NCBI RefSeq assembly: GCF_001634365.1
Contig: NZ_CP014579.1
Span: 2,542,001-2,606,000 of the forward strand
Direction: 5' to 3'
DNA: 64,000 bases
From: Paraburkholderia phytofirmans OLGA172
Lineage (GTDB): Bacteria; Pseudomonadota; Gammaproteobacteria; Burkholderiales; Burkholderiaceae
Shown: positions 6,472 through 43,067 of the stretch, one piece after another
Numbering within the stretch: the first letter of the stretch is position 1
How the letters are laid out: each line of letters opens with the position of its first letter
Position numbers and translations under genes: made by a program
Notes under the pieces: model-generated
Databases searched by the model: none
What the model was told of the DNA's origin: nothing
Seen by the model: the letters and a program-made list of their open reading frames with translations, nothing else

Positions 6472-7617
6472 ATGCCCCACTTGCCCGCGGATTTGAAAAC
6501 CATGCAAACCCAAACCCATCCGCTGATTGCCCCGACGCTCGGCACCGCCCGTGATTTGACGAGTTTTCACTATGGCCCCGGCGGCGGGCAGAAGATTTAC
6601 ATCCAGTCGTCGCTGCATGCCGACGAGTTGCCCGGCATGCTGGTCTCGTGGGCGTTGCGTCGCAAGCTCGCGGCGCTGGAAGGCGCCGGCAAGCTGCGCG
6701 GCGAAGTCGTGATCGTGCCGGTGGCCAATCCGATCGGTCTGAATCAGCACTTTCTCGGCCATTTGACGGGCCGCTTCGAGACCAACAGTGCGCAGAACTT
6801 CAACCGCAATTTCTACGAACTGGCGGCGCTGATCAAGCCCGGCATCGAAGCGCGTCTGACCGACAACGCCGACGCCAATCGCACAGCAATTCGCGCGGCG
6901 ATGCGCGAAGCGCTCGACGCGCAAAAGCCCGAAACCGAACTCGAATCGCAACGGCTGGCACTGCAAAAGCTCTCGTGTGACGCCGATGTCGTGCTCGATC
7001 TGCACTGCGACTGGGAAGCCGCGATGCATCTGTACACGAATCCGGACCTGTGGCCGGAAGTCGAGCCGCTTGCCCGCTATCTCGACGCCAAGGCGTCGCT
7101 GCTGGCGCTGAATTCGGTGGGCAATCCGTTCGACGAAATCCACAGCTTCTGCTGGTCGGATCTGCGCGGCCGTTACGGCGACCGTTTCCCGATTCCGAAC
7201 GGCTCGATCTCGGTCACGATCGAACTGCGCGGTCAACGCGAAGTGTCGTACGAGTACGCCGAGCGCGACGCCCAGGCGATCATCGAGTACCTGACCGCGC
7301 GTGGCGTGATCGACGGCACGCCGGCGCCGCTGCCGGCGCTCGAATTCGCCGCGACGCCTCTGGCCGGCGCCGAGCCGATCGTCGCGCCGATCAGCGGTGT
7401 TCTTGTCTATCGCTGCGAAGTCGGTACCTGGGTCGATGTCGGCCAGGAGATCGCCGATATCGTCGATCCGTTGACCGATCGCGTCGTGACGCTGAAGAGC
7501 AACGTGGCCGGCGTGCTGTACGCGCGGCATTTGACGCGCTTCGCGACGGCCGGGCTGGAATTCGCGCGCATTGCCGGTGCGAAAGCGTTCAGAAGCGGGT
7601 CGTTGTTGAGCAACTAA
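6472..7617 (+). CDS. succinylglutamate desuccinylase/aspartoacylase family protein (M14-like)
   Basis: A 381-residue zinc-dependent deacylase-type enzyme. The zinc motif HADELPG (His and Glu, about residue 50) and the third ligand in VLDLHCDWE are present, as is NPIGLNQHFLG and the N-rich FNRNFYE substrate region. The C-terminal part (from about residue 300, EPIVAPISGVLVYRCEVGTWVDVGQEIADIVDP) is a barrel-sandwich-like domain often attached to this family. Such enzymes hydrolyse N-acyl amino acids or related amides; the substrate is not identifiable. It follows an amino-acid binding protein gene on the same strand but a strong terminator separates them. The ATG at 6502 is an alternative start. 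Confidence 0.87.
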   Translation: MPHLPADLKTMQTQTHPLIAPTLGTARDLTSFHYGPGGGQKIYIQSSLHADELPGMLVSWALRRKLAALEGAGKLRGEVVIVPVANPIGLNQHFLGHLTGRFETNSAQNFNRNFYELAALIKPGIEARLTDNADANRTAIRAAMREALDAQKPETELESQRLALQKLSCDADVVLDLHCDWEAAMHLYTNPDLWPEVEPLARYLDAKASLLALNSVGNPFDEIHSFCWSDLRGRYGDRFPIPNGSISVTIELRGQREVSYEYAERDAQAIIEYLTARGVIDGTPAPLPALEFAATPLAGAEPIVAPISGVLVYRCEVGTWVDVGQEIADIVDPLTDRVVTLKSNVAGVLYARHLTRFATAGLEFARIAGAKAFRSGSLLSN

Positions 7618-33737: not shown

Positions 33738-34994
33738 CTAATCAGCAGCACCGCCGCGATCACTGTTGTCCCGAATGATCTGCGCGATCAACGCATCGGC
33801 GTCACGCGAAACGTTATCGTGGACGCGGGTACTTTGGCTGGCCGCCGGCGTGTCGTTGCCAATCAACTGGCCGCTGCGCACATGCGTATCCACCGACACC
33901 TGCATCGACAGGCCGAGCCGCAATGGATGCGCAGCGAGTTCGACTGGGTCGAGCGAAATCACGATCGGCACGCGCTGCACGACCTTGATCCAGTTACCGG
34001 CCGCATTCTGCGAGGGCAGCATCGAAAATGCGCTGCCGGTGCCGGCCGAGAAACCCTCCACGTGCCCCTGATACACCACTTGCGAGCCGTACACATCCGA
34101 CACGATGCGCACCGGCTGCCCCACGCGCATGCTGCGAATCTGGCCCTCCTTGAAGTTCGCCTCGACCCACAGGCGCTCGAGCGGAACGATCGACATGAGT
34201 GCGAGCCCCGGCCCGACCTGCTGGCCGATCTGCACCGAACGCTGCCCGACCGTGCCGTCGACGGGAGAAACGACGGTGGTGCGCTGCAGATTCCGATAAG
34301 CAAGCCGCACTTGCGCGGCGGCTTGCAGAACCGGCGGGCTGGCTTCGACCGGAAATTTTCCGCCGAGCGCGCGGGCGGCGTCGAGCTGGACTTGCGCCGA
34401 GGCGAGGTTCGCTTGCGCGACGGCCACCGCTTCGCGGGCGCGCGCCAATTCCTCCGGCGACACCACTTCCACCGACGCGTGATCGCGCGCCGCCAGCGCA
34501 CGTTGCGCCAACGCGAGTTCGGCGCGGCGCGCGTCGATCGATTGCACGTAGAGCTTGCGCGAGATCGTCGCGTTCGCCACCTGCCGCACGGCGAGCGTCA
34601 GTTGCGCTTTGGCCTGCGCGAACGCGGCGGCCGCTTCGGCATCGTCGAGTTTGACGAGCGGCTGGCCCGCGCGCACCTGCCGCGTGTTGTCCACCAGAAT
34701 ATCGGTGACCGTGCCAGGTATCTGCGCGGCGATCTGCACGATGTTGCCGGCCACGTAGGCGTCGTCGGTCTCTTCGTAGAAGCGCGCGCTCAAACCCCAA
34801 TACGTCAGCCACACCACGCCGGCGAGCGCCACCACGCCGAAGAAAACGGCAAAGCGGCGCCGGCGCACCGCCCGTTTCGAATCGTGCGCGTCGCTCGCTC
34901 TGCTTGCCGCGCCTGCCACGTTTGCCATGTTTGCCGGATTTGCCTGCCCCTGGGTCCAGCCGGCGGCATGCTGTGCCTGTTTATCGTTGTGCAT
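33738..34994 (-). CDS. HlyD/EmrA-family efflux periplasmic adaptor, rhl operon
   Basis: A 418-residue membrane-fusion protein. A basic segment and one membrane helix (RRRRFAVFFGVVALAGVVWLTYWG, about 43-66) anchor it; the lipoyl-type half (YVAGNIVQIAAQIPGTVTDILV), a long helical hairpin rich in Ala and Gln, the second half (VVSPVDGTVGQRSVQIGQQV) and a beta-barrel domain follow. It should bridge the inner-membrane MFS pump and the outer-membrane lipoprotein, both encoded in the same operon. Its ATG directly abuts the stop of the preceding gene (TGAATG). It is the last gene of the rhamnolipid operon, so export of rhamnolipid or its precursors is the likely job. Confidence 0.92.
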   Translation of the reverse strand: MHNDKQAQHAAGWTQGQANPANMANVAGAASRASDAHDSKRAVRRRRFAVFFGVVALAGVVWLTYWGLSARFYEETDDAYVAGNIVQIAAQIPGTVTDILVDNTRQVRAGQPLVKLDDAEAAAAFAQAKAQLTLAVRQVANATISRKLYVQSIDARRAELALAQRALAARDHASVEVVSPEELARAREAVAVAQANLASAQVQLDAARALGGKFPVEASPPVLQAAAQVRLAYRNLQRTTVVSPVDGTVGQRSVQIGQQVGPGLALMSIVPLERLWVEANFKEGQIRSMRVGQPVRIVSDVYGSQVVYQGHVEGFSAGTGSAFSMLPSQNAAGNWIKVVQRVPIVISLDPVELAAHPLRLGLSMQVSVDTHVRSGQLIGNDTPAASQSTRVHDNVSRDADALIAQIIRDNSDRGGAAD

Positions 34995-36551
34995 TCAATC
35001 GAAGTGCGTATCCGTGATGCGTGCGTGAGAGGGAAAGGTCGGCTGATAGTGAGAGATCGGCGCGCCGGCCACCTTGCGTACGTCGAAACCACCGCCGAGC
35101 GCACCGACCAGCGCGACCTGCAGCATTCTGCGGCGGCCCTGCAAATCGATTTGCTGCGCACGTTCGTCGAGCAGGGACAGGTCCGCCAGCGTCACGTCCT
35201 TCTGCATGCCGATACCGCGACGATGCCGTTCCTCGGCGATCGCGACGATGCGTGAGGCCGCCTCCACCGCGCGAGTCTGCTCGCTAGCGAGCGTATCGAC
35301 CGTACGCAACGAGGTCAGCTGGCGCGCGACCTCGCCGAGCGCCTCGTCGACGGTCTTGTTGTAAAGGCTTATCGCGGCGTCGACGTTGGCGTAATCGCCG
35401 CCGAGTTGCGCGCGCAACCGGGTCCGGTCGAAAACCGGCAAGGAGATCGCCGGTCCCACCGAACCGGTCAGCGCCGCGCGCGAGAAAAGCGCGGCGGGCG
35501 TCAAGGCTGTCAGCCCGGCAAAGGCCACCAGGTTCACGTCGGGATAGAACTGCGCCCGCGTAGCGTCGATGTTGGCAAGCGCGGCTTCGGCCCGCAACCG
35601 CGCTGCCACGATGTCGGGCCGGCGGCCCAGCAGGTCGACCGGCAGTTGTGCAGGCATCGGCGCATCGGCAGCCGCGGCCAGGTGCGGACGATGCAGCGAC
35701 AAACCCCGCTCCGCGCCGCGCCCCGTGAGTACGCCGATCTGCAACTCGGTCAGTTTGATGCGTTCGTCATTGAGCGCCTGTTGCGAGGCGAGCCGGCTTC
35801 GCTTGAGTGCGGCGTCGGCCGAGTCGTACGCGTTATCGATGCCGCGCGCACCACGCTCGCGCAACACCGCATCGACGCTATCCCCGGCCTGTTGCTTTTG
35901 CAGCAGAATGTCCTGCGTCGCAAAGGCGCGGTCGAGCTCGCAGTAAAGCGTCACGAGCGCGACCGTTAGCGTGAGCCGCGCCTGCTCCGCATCGATGCGT
36001 GCCGCGTCCCGCGCGGACAGCAGGCTGCCAGTCAGCGCGGCATTCTTGCCCCACAAGTCGAGCTGGTAGCTCAAGCCCGCGAACAGCGCGGCCGGCGAAA
36101 CCACCGGATCGTTGAACAACTGCACCGGAATCTGCTGGCCGCCGACGGATACGTTGGCCGCTTCGTCCGGCTGCGGCAAACGGGCCTTGCTCACTGCCGC
36201 CCCCGCCGTGCCGGTGAGGCCGGTGAGCGAAGCAAACTGTTCGAGTTGCGCCTGCGCGGCGCCCACCCTCGCCCTGGCGATCTGCAGATCGGGATTGTTC
36301 TGCAACGCTTCGGCGGACAATTCATCCAGTTGCGGATCGCGGTAACGCTTGACCCAATCGGGCGCGGGCCATGCGCCGTTCGCGCCTGGCCCGATGGTCT
36401 GTGCGAGCGCGTCGGCGGATGGCTTGAGCGGCTGGACGTTTGCGTGCAGGCCCGCATCGCTCACGCACCCTGTCAGCGCCGCTGCAATCAGCAGCAATGG
36501 CAGCAACAGCGGCAAAGCGCGTGGCATAGGGAATCGCATAGGCCGCCTCAT
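34995..36551 (-). CDS. outer-membrane efflux lipoprotein, NodT/OprM family, rhl operon
   Basis: A 518-residue TolC-like channel with a lipobox (ALTGC near residue 29). It contains two copies of the OEP domain: NPDLQIARARVGAAQAQLEQF in the first half and LLGRRPDIVAARLRAEAALANIDATRAQFYPDVNL in the second, the latter a hallmark of NodT-family proteins. As a trimer it should form the outer-membrane exit duct. Its start overlaps the end of rhlC by four bases (ATGA) and its stop abuts the adaptor start, showing tight coupling within the rhamnolipid operon. Export of rhamnolipid is inferred from context. Confidence 0.93.
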   Translation of the reverse strand: MRRPMRFPMPRALPLLLPLLLIAAALTGCVSDAGLHANVQPLKPSADALAQTIGPGANGAWPAPDWVKRYRDPQLDELSAEALQNNPDLQIARARVGAAQAQLEQFASLTGLTGTAGAAVSKARLPQPDEAANVSVGGQQIPVQLFNDPVVSPAALFAGLSYQLDLWGKNAALTGSLLSARDAARIDAEQARLTLTVALVTLYCELDRAFATQDILLQKQQAGDSVDAVLRERGARGIDNAYDSADAALKRSRLASQQALNDERIKLTELQIGVLTGRGAERGLSLHRPHLAAAADAPMPAQLPVDLLGRRPDIVAARLRAEAALANIDATRAQFYPDVNLVAFAGLTALTPAALFSRAALTGSVGPAISLPVFDRTRLRAQLGGDYANVDAAISLYNKTVDEALGEVARQLTSLRTVDTLASEQTRAVEAASRIVAIAEERHRRGIGMQKDVTLADLSLLDERAQQIDLQGRRRMLQVALVGALGGGFDVRKVAGAPISHYQPTFPSHARITDTHFD

Positions 36552-37579
36552 GAGTGCCGGGTACGAGGCATCGCGCGCGCTCCTGCCACCGGCGTATTCA
36601 TTTCGCCAAGCCTCGCCGAGTCGGCCGCATTTGCCGCATTTGCCGCCTTAGCGGTCTTAGCTACGTTGGCCGCGAGGCGCGGACGCGTCCGTTCGAGTGG
36701 CCCCATTCGTCCGAAGAACCCATCGAAAAGACCCAGCGCAATCGCCTTGAGCTTCGCCAGCTTGTCTTTTTCCAGCAGCACGATCTGCACGATTTGCCAG
36801 AGCGTCAGCACGTTCGGCACGATTGCGACCGGCAGGCGCATGCCATATTGCAGCGCCAGCTGCATCGCGTTTCGCGCGCTGTAATAGCGGCGGAAGCTGG
36901 GATGATTCATCGTCGTCAATTCCAGGGAACCCAGTTTGTGACGGCGCCGCGAGCCGATCCGATGCAGCAGTACGAGTGACGGCACCACGTACACCGGCAC
37001 ATTGCGCAGCAGTGCACGCAAACAGTACTCGGTATCGACGTGGTCGATAAAAAGCGCTTCGTCGAAGCGGCCGAGCTGGGCGAACGCCTCGCGCGAAACG
37101 ACACAGCCGGACGAAATCAGAAAGGCGCAGCGCTGCAGCGCGGCGTCGGCCTGTATCGGCAGCCTCTGCACCGCCAGGCCGCTCGTCGCGAGCTCGGGCA
37201 GGAAGCGTTGATCGTTTTCATCGAAGATGCGCGGGCCGACCAAAAACGCCCGGCCGCTCATCGACGCGCACCGGTCGCGCATCACCGCGAAGTAGCTGGC
37301 TGGCGCCTCGGAATCCTGGTCGAACAGTGCGACCGCATCCACGCCTTCGTCAAACAGCGCACTCAATCCACAATTGAAGGCGCCGGCAATGCCGTTGCGA
37401 TTTCCGTGATGCAGCACAGCGACGCCCGCCTCGCGCAGCATCATCGCGGCGCGCGCGTCCGGCAAGGGCGAATTGTCGACCACCAGCAAACGATCAGACG
37501 CCGAGCGCATCGCCACCGCGCGCGCGAGCTGCTCTTCACTCGGATGAAACAGAATGATCAATGCGCCCAGAATCGTCAT
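36548..37579 (-). CDS. rhlC: rhamnosyltransferase 2 (RhlC-like GT2)
   Basis: A 343-residue GT-A glycosyltransferase predicted to add the second rhamnose to mono-rhamnolipid. It has an N-terminal hydrophobic strand with LIILFHPS, the nucleotide-sugar region LLVVDNSPLPDA, GNRNGIAGAFNCGLSAL, the metal-binding ALFDQDSEAP (DxD-like) and GRFDEALFIDHVDTEYCLRAL with the catalytic base. C-terminal hydrophobic segments suggest membrane association. An AGGAG site precedes the ATG at 37579. The gene lies ten bases after the MFS gene. In Burkholderia the same order, with rhlC after the MFS gene, is known; di-rhamnolipids are the usual product there. Confidence 0.9.
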   Translation of the reverse strand: MTILGALIILFHPSEEQLARAVAMRSASDRLLVVDNSPLPDARAAMMLREAGVAVLHHGNRNGIAGAFNCGLSALFDEGVDAVALFDQDSEAPASYFAVMRDRCASMSGRAFLVGPRIFDENDQRFLPELATSGLAVQRLPIQADAALQRCAFLISSGCVVSREAFAQLGRFDEALFIDHVDTEYCLRALLRNVPVYVVPSLVLLHRIGSRRRHKLGSLELTTMNHPSFRRYYSARNAMQLALQYGMRLPVAIVPNVLTLWQIVQIVLLEKDKLAKLKAIALGLFDGFFGRMGPLERTRPRLAANVAKTAKAANAANAADSARLGEMNTPVAGARAMPRTRHS

Positions 37580-37589
37580 GCGAAGCTCC

Positions 37590-39203
37590 TCAGTGACCTA
37601 AAGCCATCGCCGCGCCGCGCTTCGGACGCGTAAGCCACATCATCGCGGCGAGCACGAGGCAGGTGATGCTTGCCATGTAGAACATGTCGCCGGTCGCCAT
37701 CATGTAAGCCTGTTGCTGCACGACGTGATGCAAGGTGGTGAGTTCGCGCGCGCCGTCGATACCCATGCCATGCAGACTCTGAACGAAGCGCTGCGTGTTG
37801 CCGGACGATTTCGTCACCGACTGCGCGACGACGTCGTAGTGATACAGCGCGCGGTTATCCCATAGCGTGACGCTCATGGCCGTGCCGAACGCCGCCGATA
37901 GCGTGCGCAAAAAGTTCGACAGGCTGGAGGCCGCGGCGAGCTTGTCGTCGGACACGCGCGAAAGCGTCGCCGCGGTCAACGGAATGAAGAAGCACGGCAA
38001 GCCGATGCCCTGGATCAGACCCGGCGTGATGATCTGCGTAAAGGTCATGGTCAGCGTGAAATGCGCGTCCCACCACAACACGGCCGCAAACAGGAGAAAG
38101 CCGAACGTCGCGAGCACGCGCGCGTCGAAACGCGCCGCATACACGCCGACCAGAATCGAGAACACCAGCGCGAGCACCCCGAGCGGTGCGGTGGCGAGCC
38201 CGGCCTGGTACGCCGTGTAGCCCATCACGGCCTGCAGCCAGAGCGGAAAGATCACGCCGACCACCGAAAAGCTCATCATGCCAAGCGAAATGATCAGCAT
38301 ACAAAACGAAAACGTGCGGTCGCGGAACAGGCTCAGATCGATCACCGGATGCCGTTCACCCGCCTCCCAGATCAACAGCGACACGATCGCCAAACCGGCG
38401 ACAATCGCCAGCGTGAGGATCAAAGGTGAATCGAACCAGCCACGATCGTGACCGAGATCCAACACCGTTTGCAGCGAGCCGACGCCGATGACCAGCAAGA
38501 GAATGCCCGGCAGATCGATCGGCGCAGCCTTGCCAGCGGATGCGTCGGGGCGCAGCAGCGTCATGCACACCGCGAACGAGAAGATGCCGATCGGCAGATT
38601 GATCAGAAAGATCCACGGCCACGAGAAACTGTCGATGATCCAGCCGCCGACCACCGGGCCGAAGATCGGCGCGAGCAGCACCGTCATCGCCCACAGAGCG
38701 AGTGCCACAACGCGCTTATCCGGCGGAAAGGTACGCAGCAGGATAGTTTGCGAAAGCGGCACCATCGGTCCGGAAAAGAGCCCCTGCAATGCCCGGCATA
38801 CCACCAGAAGGTGGAAGTCGCCGGCCACGCCGCATAGCAGCGACGTCAACGTGAAGAGGATCACCGCTCCGAGGAACAGCCGCGTTTCGCCGAGCCGGCG
38901 CGAGAGCCAGCCCGTCAAGGGCACGGCGATGGCTGCGGCCACGGAGTACGAGCTGATCACCCATGTGCCCTGACTGTTGGACACGCCGAGGCCGCCGGAA
39001 ATAGCCGGTACCGCGACGTTGGTTACCGTCGAATCCAGGACTTCGATGAAGGTGGCCAGCGACAGCGCGAACGTCAGCAAGGCGAGCTGCGCACCGCGCA
39101 TGCCGGGTACGCTGCGCCCGGCGGCAGAATCCGGGCCGGGGCCGGGGCCATGCGCCGCGCCGGCCGGCGCGGCGCGCTTCGGCAACGGCGTGGCGGCGCT
39201 CAT
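37590..39203 (-). CDS. EmrB/QacA-family MFS exporter of the rhl operon
   Basis: A 537-residue DHA2-type proton antiporter with 14 hydrophobic helices. Motifs are LDSTVTNVAVPAISGGLGVS (D1), WVISSYSVAAAIAVPLTGWLSRRLGETRLF (A), RALQGLFSGPMVPLSQTIL (B) and GPVVGGWIIDSFSWPWIFLINLPIG (C). The N-terminal 35 residues are proline/glycine/alanine-rich. The ATG at 39203 overlaps the rhlB stop as ATGA; the frame upstream to 39353 lies wholly within rhlB. With the adaptor and outer-membrane lipoprotein encoded downstream it forms a complete EmrAB-TolC-type tripartite pump, presumably for rhamnolipid. Confidence 0.93.
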   Translation of the reverse strand: MSAATPLPKRAAPAGAAHGPGPGPDSAAGRSVPGMRGAQLALLTFALSLATFIEVLDSTVTNVAVPAISGGLGVSNSQGTWVISSYSVAAAIAVPLTGWLSRRLGETRLFLGAVILFTLTSLLCGVAGDFHLLVVCRALQGLFSGPMVPLSQTILLRTFPPDKRVVALALWAMTVLLAPIFGPVVGGWIIDSFSWPWIFLINLPIGIFSFAVCMTLLRPDASAGKAAPIDLPGILLLVIGVGSLQTVLDLGHDRGWFDSPLILTLAIVAGLAIVSLLIWEAGERHPVIDLSLFRDRTFSFCMLIISLGMMSFSVVGVIFPLWLQAVMGYTAYQAGLATAPLGVLALVFSILVGVYAARFDARVLATFGFLLFAAVLWWDAHFTLTMTFTQIITPGLIQGIGLPCFFIPLTAATLSRVSDDKLAAASSLSNFLRTLSAAFGTAMSVTLWDNRALYHYDVVAQSVTKSSGNTQRFVQSLHGMGIDGARELTTLHHVVQQQAYMMATGDMFYMASITCLVLAAMMWLTRPKRGAAMALGH

Positions 39204-40540
39204 ACGCTGTGTCCGCTGGCTGCCAATGCCAGCAAAGACGCGCGGCCGACGGTTTGCGCGCACACCCTGGTCCGCATGAAATCTTCGACATAGCGTGCGG
39301 CTGCCTCGCAACCATCCGGCGACGCCCCGAGCCGGTCCTGCACGCGTCCGCACTGCGTCGCGATTGCTGGGCTGCCGAGCACTTGCTTCAATGCGCGCGC
39401 GAGAGCCTGCGGCTGCAGCGCCCTATCGAGCCGAACACCACAACCGCTCGCGACGACCCGCTGCGCATTGTCGAACTGGTCGTGTGCGAATGGCGTCAGG
39501 ACTTGCGGAATCCCGGCGGCATACGCAAGTGCTGCCGTGCCGATGCCGCCGTGATGCACCAGCGCCCGGCAGCGCGGCAACAGCGTCTGCAGCGGCACAT
39601 AACGCCGCCTGAGCAGCACGCCTCGCGAGGCTGCATGCATATCCGCCCGAGCGGCGGCCGCTTCGGCTCGAGGCGCATCCGGCGTCAAAAGAATGCCGCG
39701 CAGCCCGCCTTCCATCAGCGCCGCGCTCACTGCGCTCGCATAGCGATCCTGATCGATCAAGGTCGAGCCCGCTGTGAAAATCACGGGCCGCTCGCCCGCA
39801 GCGAGAAAAGCGTCGAGTTGCGGATCGGGCGCAGGCGCAGCCGTGTCGTTGAACAGCGGAAAGCCGCTGAGGCAGCGCGGCGCCGGCCAATCCGGCTGAG
39901 CTTGCGCGAACCATTCCGGAAAGAGACACAGCACGCCGTCGGTCGAATGCAGCCACTCGCCGAAAATGCGCCGCGCCGGTGCGAGCCCCAATTCCGCGCG
40001 TACCGCGTTCAATGTGGGGCCACAGACCTTGTCGAGCGCCTGCCGCTCGATCAGCCGCAGCAGCGCGGTTTTTACAGCCAGCGGCAAGCCGCGCGGAATC
40101 GTCAGCCGCGGGTGTGTCGGCGGCGCATGCGCGGAGAGCAGGGTCGACGGCGACACCTGCACCGACACGAACGGCACGCGATACAGTTCCTGCATCAGCC
40201 GCGCGGAAAAGGCCCACAACGTGCCGACCAGCACGGTGTCGCTATCGGTCAACGCAGCCAGTGTGTCGAAATGCGGCCGCAGCGTCGGTGCAATCACCGC
40301 CCACAGCGTGCGGAACGACGTGCGCGGATGCCATAGCGCCGGGTTCGCCATGGCCGCCTCATATTCGGCGGCGGTGCCGATCGGCACGAATGCGAAACCC
40401 TGGCGCGCGACAGCCTCAGCGAACGGCGGATGCGTGCAGAAGACGATCTGGTGGCCGCGCGCAGCCAACGCCGCGCCGATACCGAGCAAAGGATGCACGT
40501 CGCCCGCCGAGCCGATCGCGGTGATGATGACTTTCGTCAT
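39200..40540 (-). CDS. rhlB: rhamnosyltransferase 1 (RhlB-like GT-B)
   Basis: A 446-residue UGT-like glycosyltransferase that should join dTDP-L-rhamnose to the 3-(3-hydroxyalkanoyloxy)alkanoate made by RhlA. The N-terminus has GSAGDVHPLLGIGAALAARGH, the middle FTAGSTLIDQD, and the C-terminal donor-binding domain HHGGIGTAALAYAAGIPQVLTPFAHDQFDNA, all typical of the RhlB branch. The length is close to P. aeruginosa RhlB. It begins nine bases after the methyltransferase-like gene and overlaps the exporter gene by four bases. Genes for dTDP-rhamnose synthesis are not in this window. Confidence 0.93.
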   Translation of the reverse strand: MTKVIITAIGSAGDVHPLLGIGAALAARGHQIVFCTHPPFAEAVARQGFAFVPIGTAAEYEAAMANPALWHPRTSFRTLWAVIAPTLRPHFDTLAALTDSDTVLVGTLWAFSARLMQELYRVPFVSVQVSPSTLLSAHAPPTHPRLTIPRGLPLAVKTALLRLIERQALDKVCGPTLNAVRAELGLAPARRIFGEWLHSTDGVLCLFPEWFAQAQPDWPAPRCLSGFPLFNDTAAPAPDPQLDAFLAAGERPVIFTAGSTLIDQDRYASAVSAALMEGGLRGILLTPDAPRAEAAAARADMHAASRGVLLRRRYVPLQTLLPRCRALVHHGGIGTAALAYAAGIPQVLTPFAHDQFDNAQRVVASGCGVRLDRALQPQALARALKQVLGSPAIATQCGRVQDRLGASPDGCEAAARYVEDFMRTRVCAQTVGRASLLALAASGHSV

Positions 40541-40549
40541 TCAGGCAGC

Positions 40550-41119
40550 TCAGAAGAGACCGGGAATCAGCGCGGCGACGTCGCGACGATACTGCGCATA
40601 CGCACGGCCAAAGTGACCGGTCAGCCAGCTCTCCTCGACCCGCACCTTGTACGCCAGCGACGCGAAAATCAGCAATAGCCCAGCCACGCCACGCCATTGC
40701 GCGCCGATCAGCACCGCCCCCAGAAGCGCCAGCAGGCAGCCGGTATAGATCGGATGACGAACCAGTCCATAGGGCCCGCTGCGCACCAGCTCATGCCCTT
40801 CCTTCAGCGTGACCGACACGCTCCAGTTGGTGCCGAGATGCAGCCGCGCCCACACGGAAAACGCAAGGCCGGCCAGCAGCACCGCGAAGCCGGCCAGTTG
40901 CAGCGGCCCGACCGCATGTGGATCAGCAGACAACGCCGCTGTGTTGAAGTCCGGCAGCACGATCAGCGCGCCACCGCCAATCAATGGAATCGACTGCAAC
41001 GTGCGCGATCGTGACGCCTCCTTGCGCGCGGTCTCCTTGACGCGGTTCGACGTCGCGACCCAATACAGCAGCCACAGCGCCCACGGTACGACAATGGCAA
41101 TGCTCTGAGCGATATTCAC
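40550..41119 (-). CDS. isoprenylcysteine carboxyl methyltransferase (ICMT)-family protein in the rhl operon
   Basis: A 189-residue integral membrane methyltransferase-like protein with about five hydrophobic helices. The ICMT/PEMT signatures are present: GPYGLVRHPIYTG (RHPxY at 121-125, SAM-binding) and VEESWLTGHFGRAYAQYRR (EE at 162-163) near the C-terminus, ending VAALIPGLF. ICMT relatives methylate carboxyl groups at the membrane face. The start is a GTG at 41119 whose last bases form the rhlA stop (GTGA), and rhlB starts nine bases after its end, so it is clearly part of the operon. A likely role is methyl-esterification of the free carboxyl group of rhamnolipid or its hydroxyalkanoyloxyalkanoate precursor; this is inference. 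Confidence 0.85.
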   Translation of the reverse strand: MNIAQSIAIVVPWALWLLYWVATSNRVKETARKEASRSRTLQSIPLIGGGALIVLPDFNTAALSADPHAVGPLQLAGFAVLLAGLAFSVWARLHLGTNWSVSVTLKEGHELVRSGPYGLVRHPIYTGCLLALLGAVLIGAQWRGVAGLLLIFASLAYKVRVEESWLTGHFGRAYAQYRRDVAALIPGLF

Positions 41120-42096
41120 GGTAGTTCGACCTGTTGGAACGAGTGATCGGCGGTGGCCTGCAACACGACGTTCGCGACGTTTGCAATGGCGGCTTGCTGC
41201 ACCGGCATGATGGGCGAGCGGGCGGTAAATGCGTCGAAGCAGTCGAGCTCACGGCCTGCCGCCGGCACCCGAGCGGCACCGAAGTAATCGAAAATCGCCG
41301 TCCTGACCTGGCGCAGCGCGGGCCGTCCTTCGAGATCGAGGAAATGCCCGGCCTGCTCGATCGTGAGAAACTCGGCGCGCTTCAGATGCGCGCTGAGCGA
41401 GCGGGCGTCCTCAGGCGTGGTGTAGTCGTCGAGCTCGCCGTTGAGAAATTTCAATCCGCAATCGATGTTGCGGAACTCGTGCAGATAGTCCTCGGGGCGG
41501 ATGGCCAGAATCTGGTCGACGTGAAACGCCACCTGGTCCTGCTCATCGCGCGGCAGTGTAGAGAGGTAGCGGTAGTTATAGAGCTTCATGATGCGCGGCA
41601 GATGCCGGCCAACAGTATCGTTGAGCAGTTGCGCGGCCTTCAGATTTTCGCCGGCGGCGATGTGGTCGCGTGCCGCGGTTACATACGCGGTCATCGCCGC
41701 GTTGAGCCGCGGCGAGAACGAAGCAATCACCGCGCGCCTCACACTAGTGCGCGCCCGCGAGAGCGCCAGCAGCGACGCCACCCCGCCCCACGACACCGAC
41801 AACAGGAAGCTCGGCTCGAATAAGCCTATTAGATGCAGCAGAATGTCGACTTCATCGTCTTTTGTCAGAACGAAGTCGCAAACGTTATGCGCTTTCGATT
41901 GACCCGCATAAGGTAAATCGAAACAAATTGGGTTATAGCGTTCGCCGAGGTATTTGATTGTCTGTCCGAACGACGCCGTGGTGGCCAGCGCGCCGTTGAT
42001 CAGAATGACACTCTCGAAGGCCGGATCGAATACGTGACGTTCAACGTAGACTTTCAGGCCCGCCGGTAGCGGAACAAGGAGTTTTTCGATGGGCAT
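41116..42096 (-). CDS. rhlA: RhlA, 3-(3-hydroxyalkanoyloxy)alkanoate synthase
   Basis: A 326-residue alpha/beta-hydrolase-fold acyltransferase that dimerises 3-hydroxyacyl units into the lipid part of rhamnolipids. The nucleophile Ser102 lies in LLSVSWGGVASLL, with Asp223 in LNGELDDYTTPEDAR and His251 in EQAGHFLDLEG; these positions agree with the catalytic triad I recall for P. aeruginosa RhlA. LINGALATTASFGQT, FDLPYAGQSKAHN and LTKDDEVDILL also match that protein. The start at 42096 aligns the N-terminus (MPIEKLLVPLPAGLKVYVER) with it. The C-terminus is about 30 residues longer. First gene of the operon; a TTG at 42126 would lengthen it. Confidence 0.95.
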   Translation of the reverse strand: MPIEKLLVPLPAGLKVYVERHVFDPAFESVILINGALATTASFGQTIKYLGERYNPICFDLPYAGQSKAHNVCDFVLTKDDEVDILLHLIGLFEPSFLLSVSWGGVASLLALSRARTSVRRAVIASFSPRLNAAMTAYVTAARDHIAAGENLKAAQLLNDTVGRHLPRIMKLYNYRYLSTLPRDEQDQVAFHVDQILAIRPEDYLHEFRNIDCGLKFLNGELDDYTTPEDARSLSAHLKRAEFLTIEQAGHFLDLEGRPALRQVRTAIFDYFGAARVPAAGRELDCFDAFTARSPIMPVQQAAIANVANVVLQATADHSFQQVELP

Positions 42097-42581
42097 GGCG
42101 TATTCGCATGCACTTGCGCCAGGCAAATGCGTACCGATACCGCGCCCGCACTCGCGGACGCCTTGCGGCCGGACTACCGGGGATCAGGCCCATGTGACTT
42201 GCCTTGACGCCGGCAAATCCGATCCGCGACGACCGCTGCTGCACCGAAAACAGGTTCACTCAACGTGATCCCTGCCGGCTCTCTTTGACGCGCGCCTGAA
42301 CTCAGGTTCGCTTCAATCGAGCGTTCGATGCCTCGTAATGTTTTTATATGTAATTTGGAAAGCGTTGCTTCAATCTCTGCCGCACGCCATTCGTTGACAC
42401 CAGTCTGCTCTTGCTGCGTGAAGACTTGATGTCAATACGCGATGACGGAAAGCTTTTTAACATATTTCAAAAATAAAAGCTGAAAATGTCACTGAGGATA
42501 TGTTCGAAATTGGCAGGGAAAATGTTATTGAAAGGAAATGGCATTGAGTTCCGCAGCCATTGCGCCACGCTACTCAAGACA
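42097..42581. other. upstream region of the rhl operon
   Basis: About 480 bases between rhlA and the next minus-strand gene. It must hold the rhl promoter. From 42420 to 42540 it is notably AT-rich. I looked for a lux-box-like 18-20 bp palindrome and found only the short CCTGA-AC-TCAGG element near 42294-42305, which is not a convincing quorum-sensing site. No gene is supported. Confidence 0.5.
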
Positions 42582-43067
42582 CTACCGGACCAGCGAGAAT
42601 GCTTCCCGGCAGGCGATCTCGCCGGCGCCGTACACGCCGACCACCGTATAGTCCGACGCCACGCATTCGAACGTCGAGCCCTGAAACGTGATGACAAAAT
42701 GGCGCTGCGCAGGACCGGGCGAAGTGACGGCCGAAATCTCGGCGGCCAGCGACGAGTTCATCACTTCGTGAACCGAGTACCCGGTGAGCCCAAGCGAAGC
42801 GAGCGGATGGATCTCGAGATCGATATCGCCGGGCGGCCCCAGTCGATGAAACACGGCGTCGGGAAATAGCACCGTGCAAAACGGATCGTCATCGGAATCG
42901 AATGGTCCGAACTGTTCAAAGTCGGATTCAGCAATTGGATAGGCCAAAATCACCCGGCGGTCGCTGGTGACAATGAATGGTTCGGCGGCGTCGGCTGCCG
43001 GATGAGGAACGGAGTCCAGCAGGACGACATGGTCTTCCTGCTGGGGTGACTCGAGCGTGCTAATCAT
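42582..43067 (-). CDS. hypothetical acidic protein
   Basis: A 161-residue soluble, acidic protein without signal peptide, containing an Asp-rich stretch (FGPFDSDDDPFCTVLFPDA) and beta-rich segments (RHFVITFQGSTFECVASDYTVVGVYG). I recognise no family. It lies 22 bases after the H-NS-like gene on the same strand and may share its transcript. Codon use is in line with neighbours, so it is probably a genuine gene. Confidence 0.6.
   Translation of the reverse strand: MISTLESPQQEDHVVLLDSVPHPAADAAEPFIVTSDRRVILAYPIAESDFEQFGPFDSDDDPFCTVLFPDAVFHRLGPPGDIDLEIHPLASLGLTGYSVHEVMNSSLAAEISAVTSPGPAQRHFVITFQGSTFECVASDYTVVGVYGAGEIACREAFSLVR

Follow-up and report, generated by a model that had tools for sequence, protein, structure and literature searches.

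Methyl esterification of rhamnolipids has been assigned to a dedicated enzyme in Paraburkholderia kirstenboschensis F3, where rhlM, annotated as a member of the ICMT family, lies downstream of rhlA (Liu et al. 2024, PMC11069360). The roles of rhlA in making hydroxyalkanoyloxyalkanoates (HAAs), of rhlB in rhamnosylation and of rhlM in methylation of the carboxyl group were shown in that strain. With rhlM deleted, the rhamnolipid methyl esters disappeared and free rhamnolipids and HAAs remained; the esters returned on complementation and took up label from D3-methionine, identifying methionine as the methyl source. Since an rhlB mutant contained HAAs and no methylated HAAs, methylation was proposed as the last step. 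The same report places RhlM in 92% of the cluster-bearing Paraburkholderia species, and refers to two reports of natural methyl esters, one earlier and one later, as well as to an earlier bioinformatic survey. The transport genes of a related cluster, that of Burkholderia thailandensis, were described in 2009 (Dubeau et al., PMC2804600). Here, we analyzed a 64,000-nucleotide stretch of Paraburkholderia phytofirmans OLGA172 (contig NZ_CP014579.1, positions 2,542,001 to 2,606,000; hereafter, the window), in which the open reading frames at positions 33738-42096 form a run of seven minus-strand genes: rhlA, an ICMT-like gene, rhlB, a major facilitator superfamily (MFS) exporter gene, rhlC, and genes for a NodT-type lipoprotein and an EmrA-type adaptor.

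The rhlM counterpart and its operon

The ICMT-like gene of the window (40550-41119, minus strand; GTG start; 189 aa) is located directly downstream of rhlA, as is the ICMT-family gene of the F3 cluster, and the residues H122 and E162 have the same numbering in both proteins. In the features that could be compared with the published account (position, family and active-site numbering), the two clusters do not differ. On these grounds the gene is very probably the counterpart of rhlM, and the function of its product as a rhamnolipid carboxyl methyltransferase is assigned by analogy with the F3 enzyme (Liu et al. 2024, PMC11069360). According to that report, H122 and E162 are the S-adenosylmethionine (SAM) contacts of RhlM. 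They are found at the published numbering in the window RhlM and in 53 of 54 orthologues, a tally in which L059 (188 residues) was not counted; across 28 wider sequences, E162 never changes and H122 almost never. In the family search RhlM matched PF04140 and PF04191, as expected of an ICMT-family membrane protein, while its score against the equivalog model for protein-S-isoprenylcysteine O-methyltransferase (NF040696) was 85.5 bits, below the cut-off of 160. Among named relatives, those closest to the window protein (up to 97% identity) belong to Paraburkholderia species, and the F3 protein does not appear by name among the hits listed. The dN/dS values of rhlM were 0.06-0.18 (NG86; 8 comparisons of 54 possible), indicating purifying selection and fitting a working gene.

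We are therefore highly confident in reading the locus as a rhamnolipid methyl ester operon of Burkholderia sensu lato, in which RhlM would cap the carboxyl group and a pump would export the product. RhlA would join two 3-hydroxyacyl chains to form an HAA, to which RhlB and then RhlC would add L-rhamnose from dTDP-L-rhamnose. RhlM, as a SAM-dependent, ICMT-family membrane enzyme, would then methylate the free carboxyl group of rhamnolipid that has partitioned into the membrane, yielding an uncharged methyl ester. Export of this ester probably falls to a tripartite pump made up of the EmrB-like MFS protein, the EmrA-type adaptor and the NodT channel. For the window strain itself, we infer by analogy the same RhlM activity, the addition of the second rhamnose by RhlC, the order of the steps and export by the pump.

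The first-pass annotation, made from the window sequence, had proposed that the ICMT relative yields methyl-esterified, uncharged rhamnolipids, and the deletion, complementation and isotope labelling in F3 support this proposal (PMC11069360). Its wording extended to rhamnolipid precursors, and this part is less likely in view of the F3 rhlB mutant. A related scheme, in which the methyl group goes onto HAA or mono-rhamnolipid as an earlier intermediate and the sugars follow, so that gene position mirrors step order, would suit the location of rhlM between rhlA and rhlB and its stop-start overlap with rhlA. Nevertheless, as published for F3 (PMC11069360), no methylated form accompanied the HAAs of the rhlB mutant, and free rhamnolipids persisted in the rhlM mutant; we give this scheme a slim chance. 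The first-pass suspicion that a dedicated enzyme might be undescribed is not supported, given the 2024 publication of rhlM, and the ideas of a new enzyme or a new gene order were both discarded, since Liu et al. 2024 (PMC11069360) describes the two. The enzyme, its product, the gene order and the wide distribution are thus already in print, and the rhlM result adds one genome to the published pathway. The window is also a fair example of gene order by itself leading to the right functional prediction.

All seven genes are in frame, with no internal stops. From rhlA to the adaptor gene, the junctions are a 4-base overlap (GTGA) between rhlA and rhlM, a gap of 9 bp before rhlB, a 4-base overlap (ATGA) of rhlB with the exporter gene, a gap of 10 bp before rhlC, a 4-base overlap (ATGA) of rhlC with the NodT gene, and directly abutting NodT and EmrA genes (gap 0, TGAATG). 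Gene order, strand and junctions, as first annotated, were confirmed by the coordinates, open frames and junction check, as were Ser102, Asp223 and His251 of RhlA by the residue check. Residues 4-272 of the HAA synthase RhlA (41116-42096, minus strand; 326 aa; ATG start) align with 8ik2, an HAA synthase of solved structure (E 4.3e-71). RhlB (39200-40540, minus strand; 446 aa), the first rhamnosyltransferase, belongs to glycosyltransferase family 28 and is EryCIII-like, and RhlC (36548-37579, minus strand; 343 aa), the second rhamnosyltransferase, scores 240.7 bits against TIGR01556 (cut-off 200.55). The Ser-Asp-His residues of RhlA, together with the RhlB and RhlC glycosyltransferases, mark the locus as a rhamnolipid biosynthesis cluster. 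The EmrB-like MFS exporter (37590-39203, minus strand; 537 aa) and the NodT-type outer membrane lipoprotein (34995-36551, minus strand; 518 aa) exceed the cut-offs of their models (TIGR00711, 469.8 bits, cut-off 230.2; TIGR01845, 299.2 bits, cut-off 210.05), whereas the EmrA-type periplasmic adaptor (33738-34994, minus strand; 418 aa) stays below both of its own (NF011715, 393 bits, cut-off 563; TIGR00998, 317.4 bits, cut-off 390.8). The genome of the window strain has three RmlC-type matches. Autoinducer synthase models gave three matches elsewhere in the genome, two of them above the cut-off and the third under it, and none showed a link to rhl.

Distribution of rhlM in and outside rhl clusters

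A search with the ICMT-like protein itself recovered 78 loci, 54 of them from Burkholderiaceae and 24 from outside this family. Every one of the 54 Burkholderiaceae loci has rhlA before and rhlB after rhlM; 51 contain all seven genes, and L031, L032 and L048 end inside rhlB. L024 (Burkholderia sp. TSV86) was counted among the 54 with an rhlA frame that looks interrupted near 7051-7570, where it is open for 172 residues from the start of the match; the interruption may be a sequencing error or the mark of a pseudogene. Setting L024 apart, rhlA and rhlM overlap by 4 bases in 20/54 loci (RhlA of 298-330 aa by frame read) and are separated by 35-88 bp in 33/54 (RhlA of 297-308 aa). The overlap suggests translational coupling. 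The start codon of rhlM is GTG in 45 of the 54 loci and ATG in nine. The C-terminus of RhlA (window 41116-41270, minus strand) is longer in the close relatives of the window.

Because these 54 loci were collected with the ICMT protein as query, a count over 144 genomes of the window's genus is less biased. At a threshold of E 1e-20, RhlM was matched in 48 genomes, with 45 close matches (at least 60% identity) and three distant ones (G025, G050 and G051; 31-41%). The rhlA gene was found in 47 genomes, namely the 45 with a close rhlM plus G001 and G056, and by coordinates the close rhlM adjoins rhlA in 45/47. The extra gene is therefore the normal state in the genus, in agreement with the 92% published for Paraburkholderia (PMC11069360). 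Both G001 (L093) and G056 (L094) carry rhlA followed by rhlB, the exporter gene, rhlC, and the NodT and EmrA genes, without rhlM, which makes them natural comparison strains for methylated versus free rhamnolipids. The rhlA-ICMT-rhlB order, for which the first-pass annotation had proposed a search across Burkholderiaceae, thus holds in both counts. The annotation's premise that no gene lies between rhlA and rhlB describes the B. thailandensis type, as published (PMC2804600), together with G001 and G056, and fails for the 54 loci. The synteny in 54/54 loci, the genus count and the purifying selection led us to reject chance or artefact as the origin of the arrangement; given the linkage and the low dN/dS, rhlM is also unlikely to be a hitchhiking gene.

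The protein could instead act on some other lipid or protein and merely share the operon. Relatives with 32-54% identity occur outside rhl clusters in other bacteria, and Liu et al. 2024 (PMC11069360) state that little is known of what other bacterial ICMT-family proteins act on, both of which would fit such a role. The position of close rhlM genes beside rhlA in 45 of the 47 rhlA-bearing genus genomes, the separate group that the rhl-linked proteins form in a tree, and the F3 genetics (PMC11069360) all speak for the rhamnolipid as the substrate, and we regard a different one as very improbable.

RhlM-like proteins of about 32-54% identity are found in Acidobacteria, Verrucomicrobia, Gammaproteobacteria and others (L060-L081, L083, L084), and further ones in the window's genus (L095, L096, L097), in each case without rhl genes in the available DNA. 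At E 1e-10, none of the other six rhl genes was detected in the 24 non-Burkholderiaceae loci, and the proposal that the proteins of other bacteria are further rhamnolipid enzymes was set aside on this result, although several of these loci are short or truncated where a contig stops. For L061 and L071, the neighbouring genes were viewed as lists of open reading frames.

A candidate leader RNA before rhlA

While the rhlM finding is already known, the leader of the operon is the part that may be new. Close relatives strongly conserve the approximately 155 nt that immediately precede rhlA; conservation is lower farther upstream, where it is found in some blocks. Based on conservation and covariation, this leader may be a new cis-regulatory RNA, the candidate structured element spanning 42088-42250 (minus strand), including the first 9 bases of rhlA. 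An alignment of 20 sequences (the window and 19 loci) yielded a consensus structure of 8 helices and 49 pairs, in which 97.9% of the cells are paired. Changes on both sides are seen in eight pairs, compared with a mean of 2.5 in shuffled alignments (0/500 reached eight) and 0-3 in slid controls. The best covariation is in helix 4, in which 3/8 pairs change on both sides. In two hairpins closer to the start, the loops vary and the stems are almost invariant. Four of the five measures were reached by 0/500 shuffles and the remaining one, further pair types, by 12/500. Folding of a 224-nt stretch of the window gave a z-score of -2.28, a stability matched by 3/200 shuffles. The shuffles ignore relatedness, and the structure was derived from the same alignment. 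We consider the covariation evidence, taken from aligned sequences, good but not conclusive.

Of the 144 genus genomes, 31 carry a single match to the covariance model, which in every case reaches 9 nt into rhlA and ends there. The 31 are exactly those with an RhlA of 79% or higher identity to that of the window; the other 16 rhlA-bearing genomes (57-73%) gave no match in this search, whose stricter filters lose weak matches. As the 31 genomes partly overlap the sequences of the model, the result is a map and not an independent test. No significant match was obtained in 39 loci outside the clade; the best (L030, 6916-6983, E 0.032) falls within the rhlA leader of L030 and is possibly a distant remnant. 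A comparison of window positions 41900-42600 with Rfam 15 gave no match up to E 1. Among the titles listed by searches of a partial literature library, none dealt with such an rhlA leader in Burkholderiaceae, and the words "promoter" and "untranslated" are absent from the main text of Liu et al. 2024 (PMC11069360).

The clade lacks a GGAG close before rhlA, a motif that Burkholderia loci have there. Bases 4-18 before the rhlA start are predicted to be mostly paired in the clade (mean unpaired 0.18-0.40, n=10), versus 0.36-0.75 in six other sequences. It is possible, though short of probable, that this undescribed leader controls the rhl operon by masking a start without a clear Shine-Dalgarno sequence, opening to a metabolite, protein or small RNA, and so setting the level of methylated rhamnolipid. 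If real, the leader would be a handle on the timing of surfactant production in these bacteria.

Other explanations were considered for the same stretch. A DNA-level signal, or a transcription start inside the leader region, may be present instead. DNA-level signals may exist upstream, given the conserved blocks, and a simple scan found no promoter-like and no terminator-like site. At about 42310-42450 (minus strand), blocks around TTGACAT and ACGAGGCATCGAA are conserved in 13 aligned relatives and are possibly a promoter or operator, although the simple promoter scan found none. A short coding frame is unlikely: the upstream frame from a conserved ATGGGC is kept throughout in 14/20 rows (with ACG for ATG in L021) and shifted by indels in the other six (L016-L019, L023, L047). 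An RNA thermometer is not favoured, since over 16 sequences, 10 of the clade, little change was predicted from 20 to 42 °C. The pairing near the rhlA start changed little in 9/10 clade sequences, and in L018 the unpaired value of the start codon rose from 0.48 to 0.68.

Comparison with described systems

RhlM shares its fold and sequence family with the ICMT structures 4a2n (archaeal) and 5v7p and 5vg9 (eukaryotic), with only about 20-25% identity. The substrate of eukaryotic ICMT is prenylated proteins, unlike that proposed for RhlM, and no acceptor has been determined for 4a2n. The B. thailandensis E264 cluster resembles that of the window in rhlA, rhlB, rhlC, the EmrB/QacA-type transporter, the NodT lipoprotein and EmrA; it occurs in two identical copies, and its published table of the remaining open reading frames names one hypothetical protein and no methyltransferase (PMC2804600). 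For the leader, the closest described element is in Pseudomonas aeruginosa, whose rhlAB leader holds a ROSE-like RNA thermometer (PMC6761213). The window leader differs from this element, as published, in its lack of an Rfam match and its small predicted response to temperature, and is like it in being a structured leader of rhlA.
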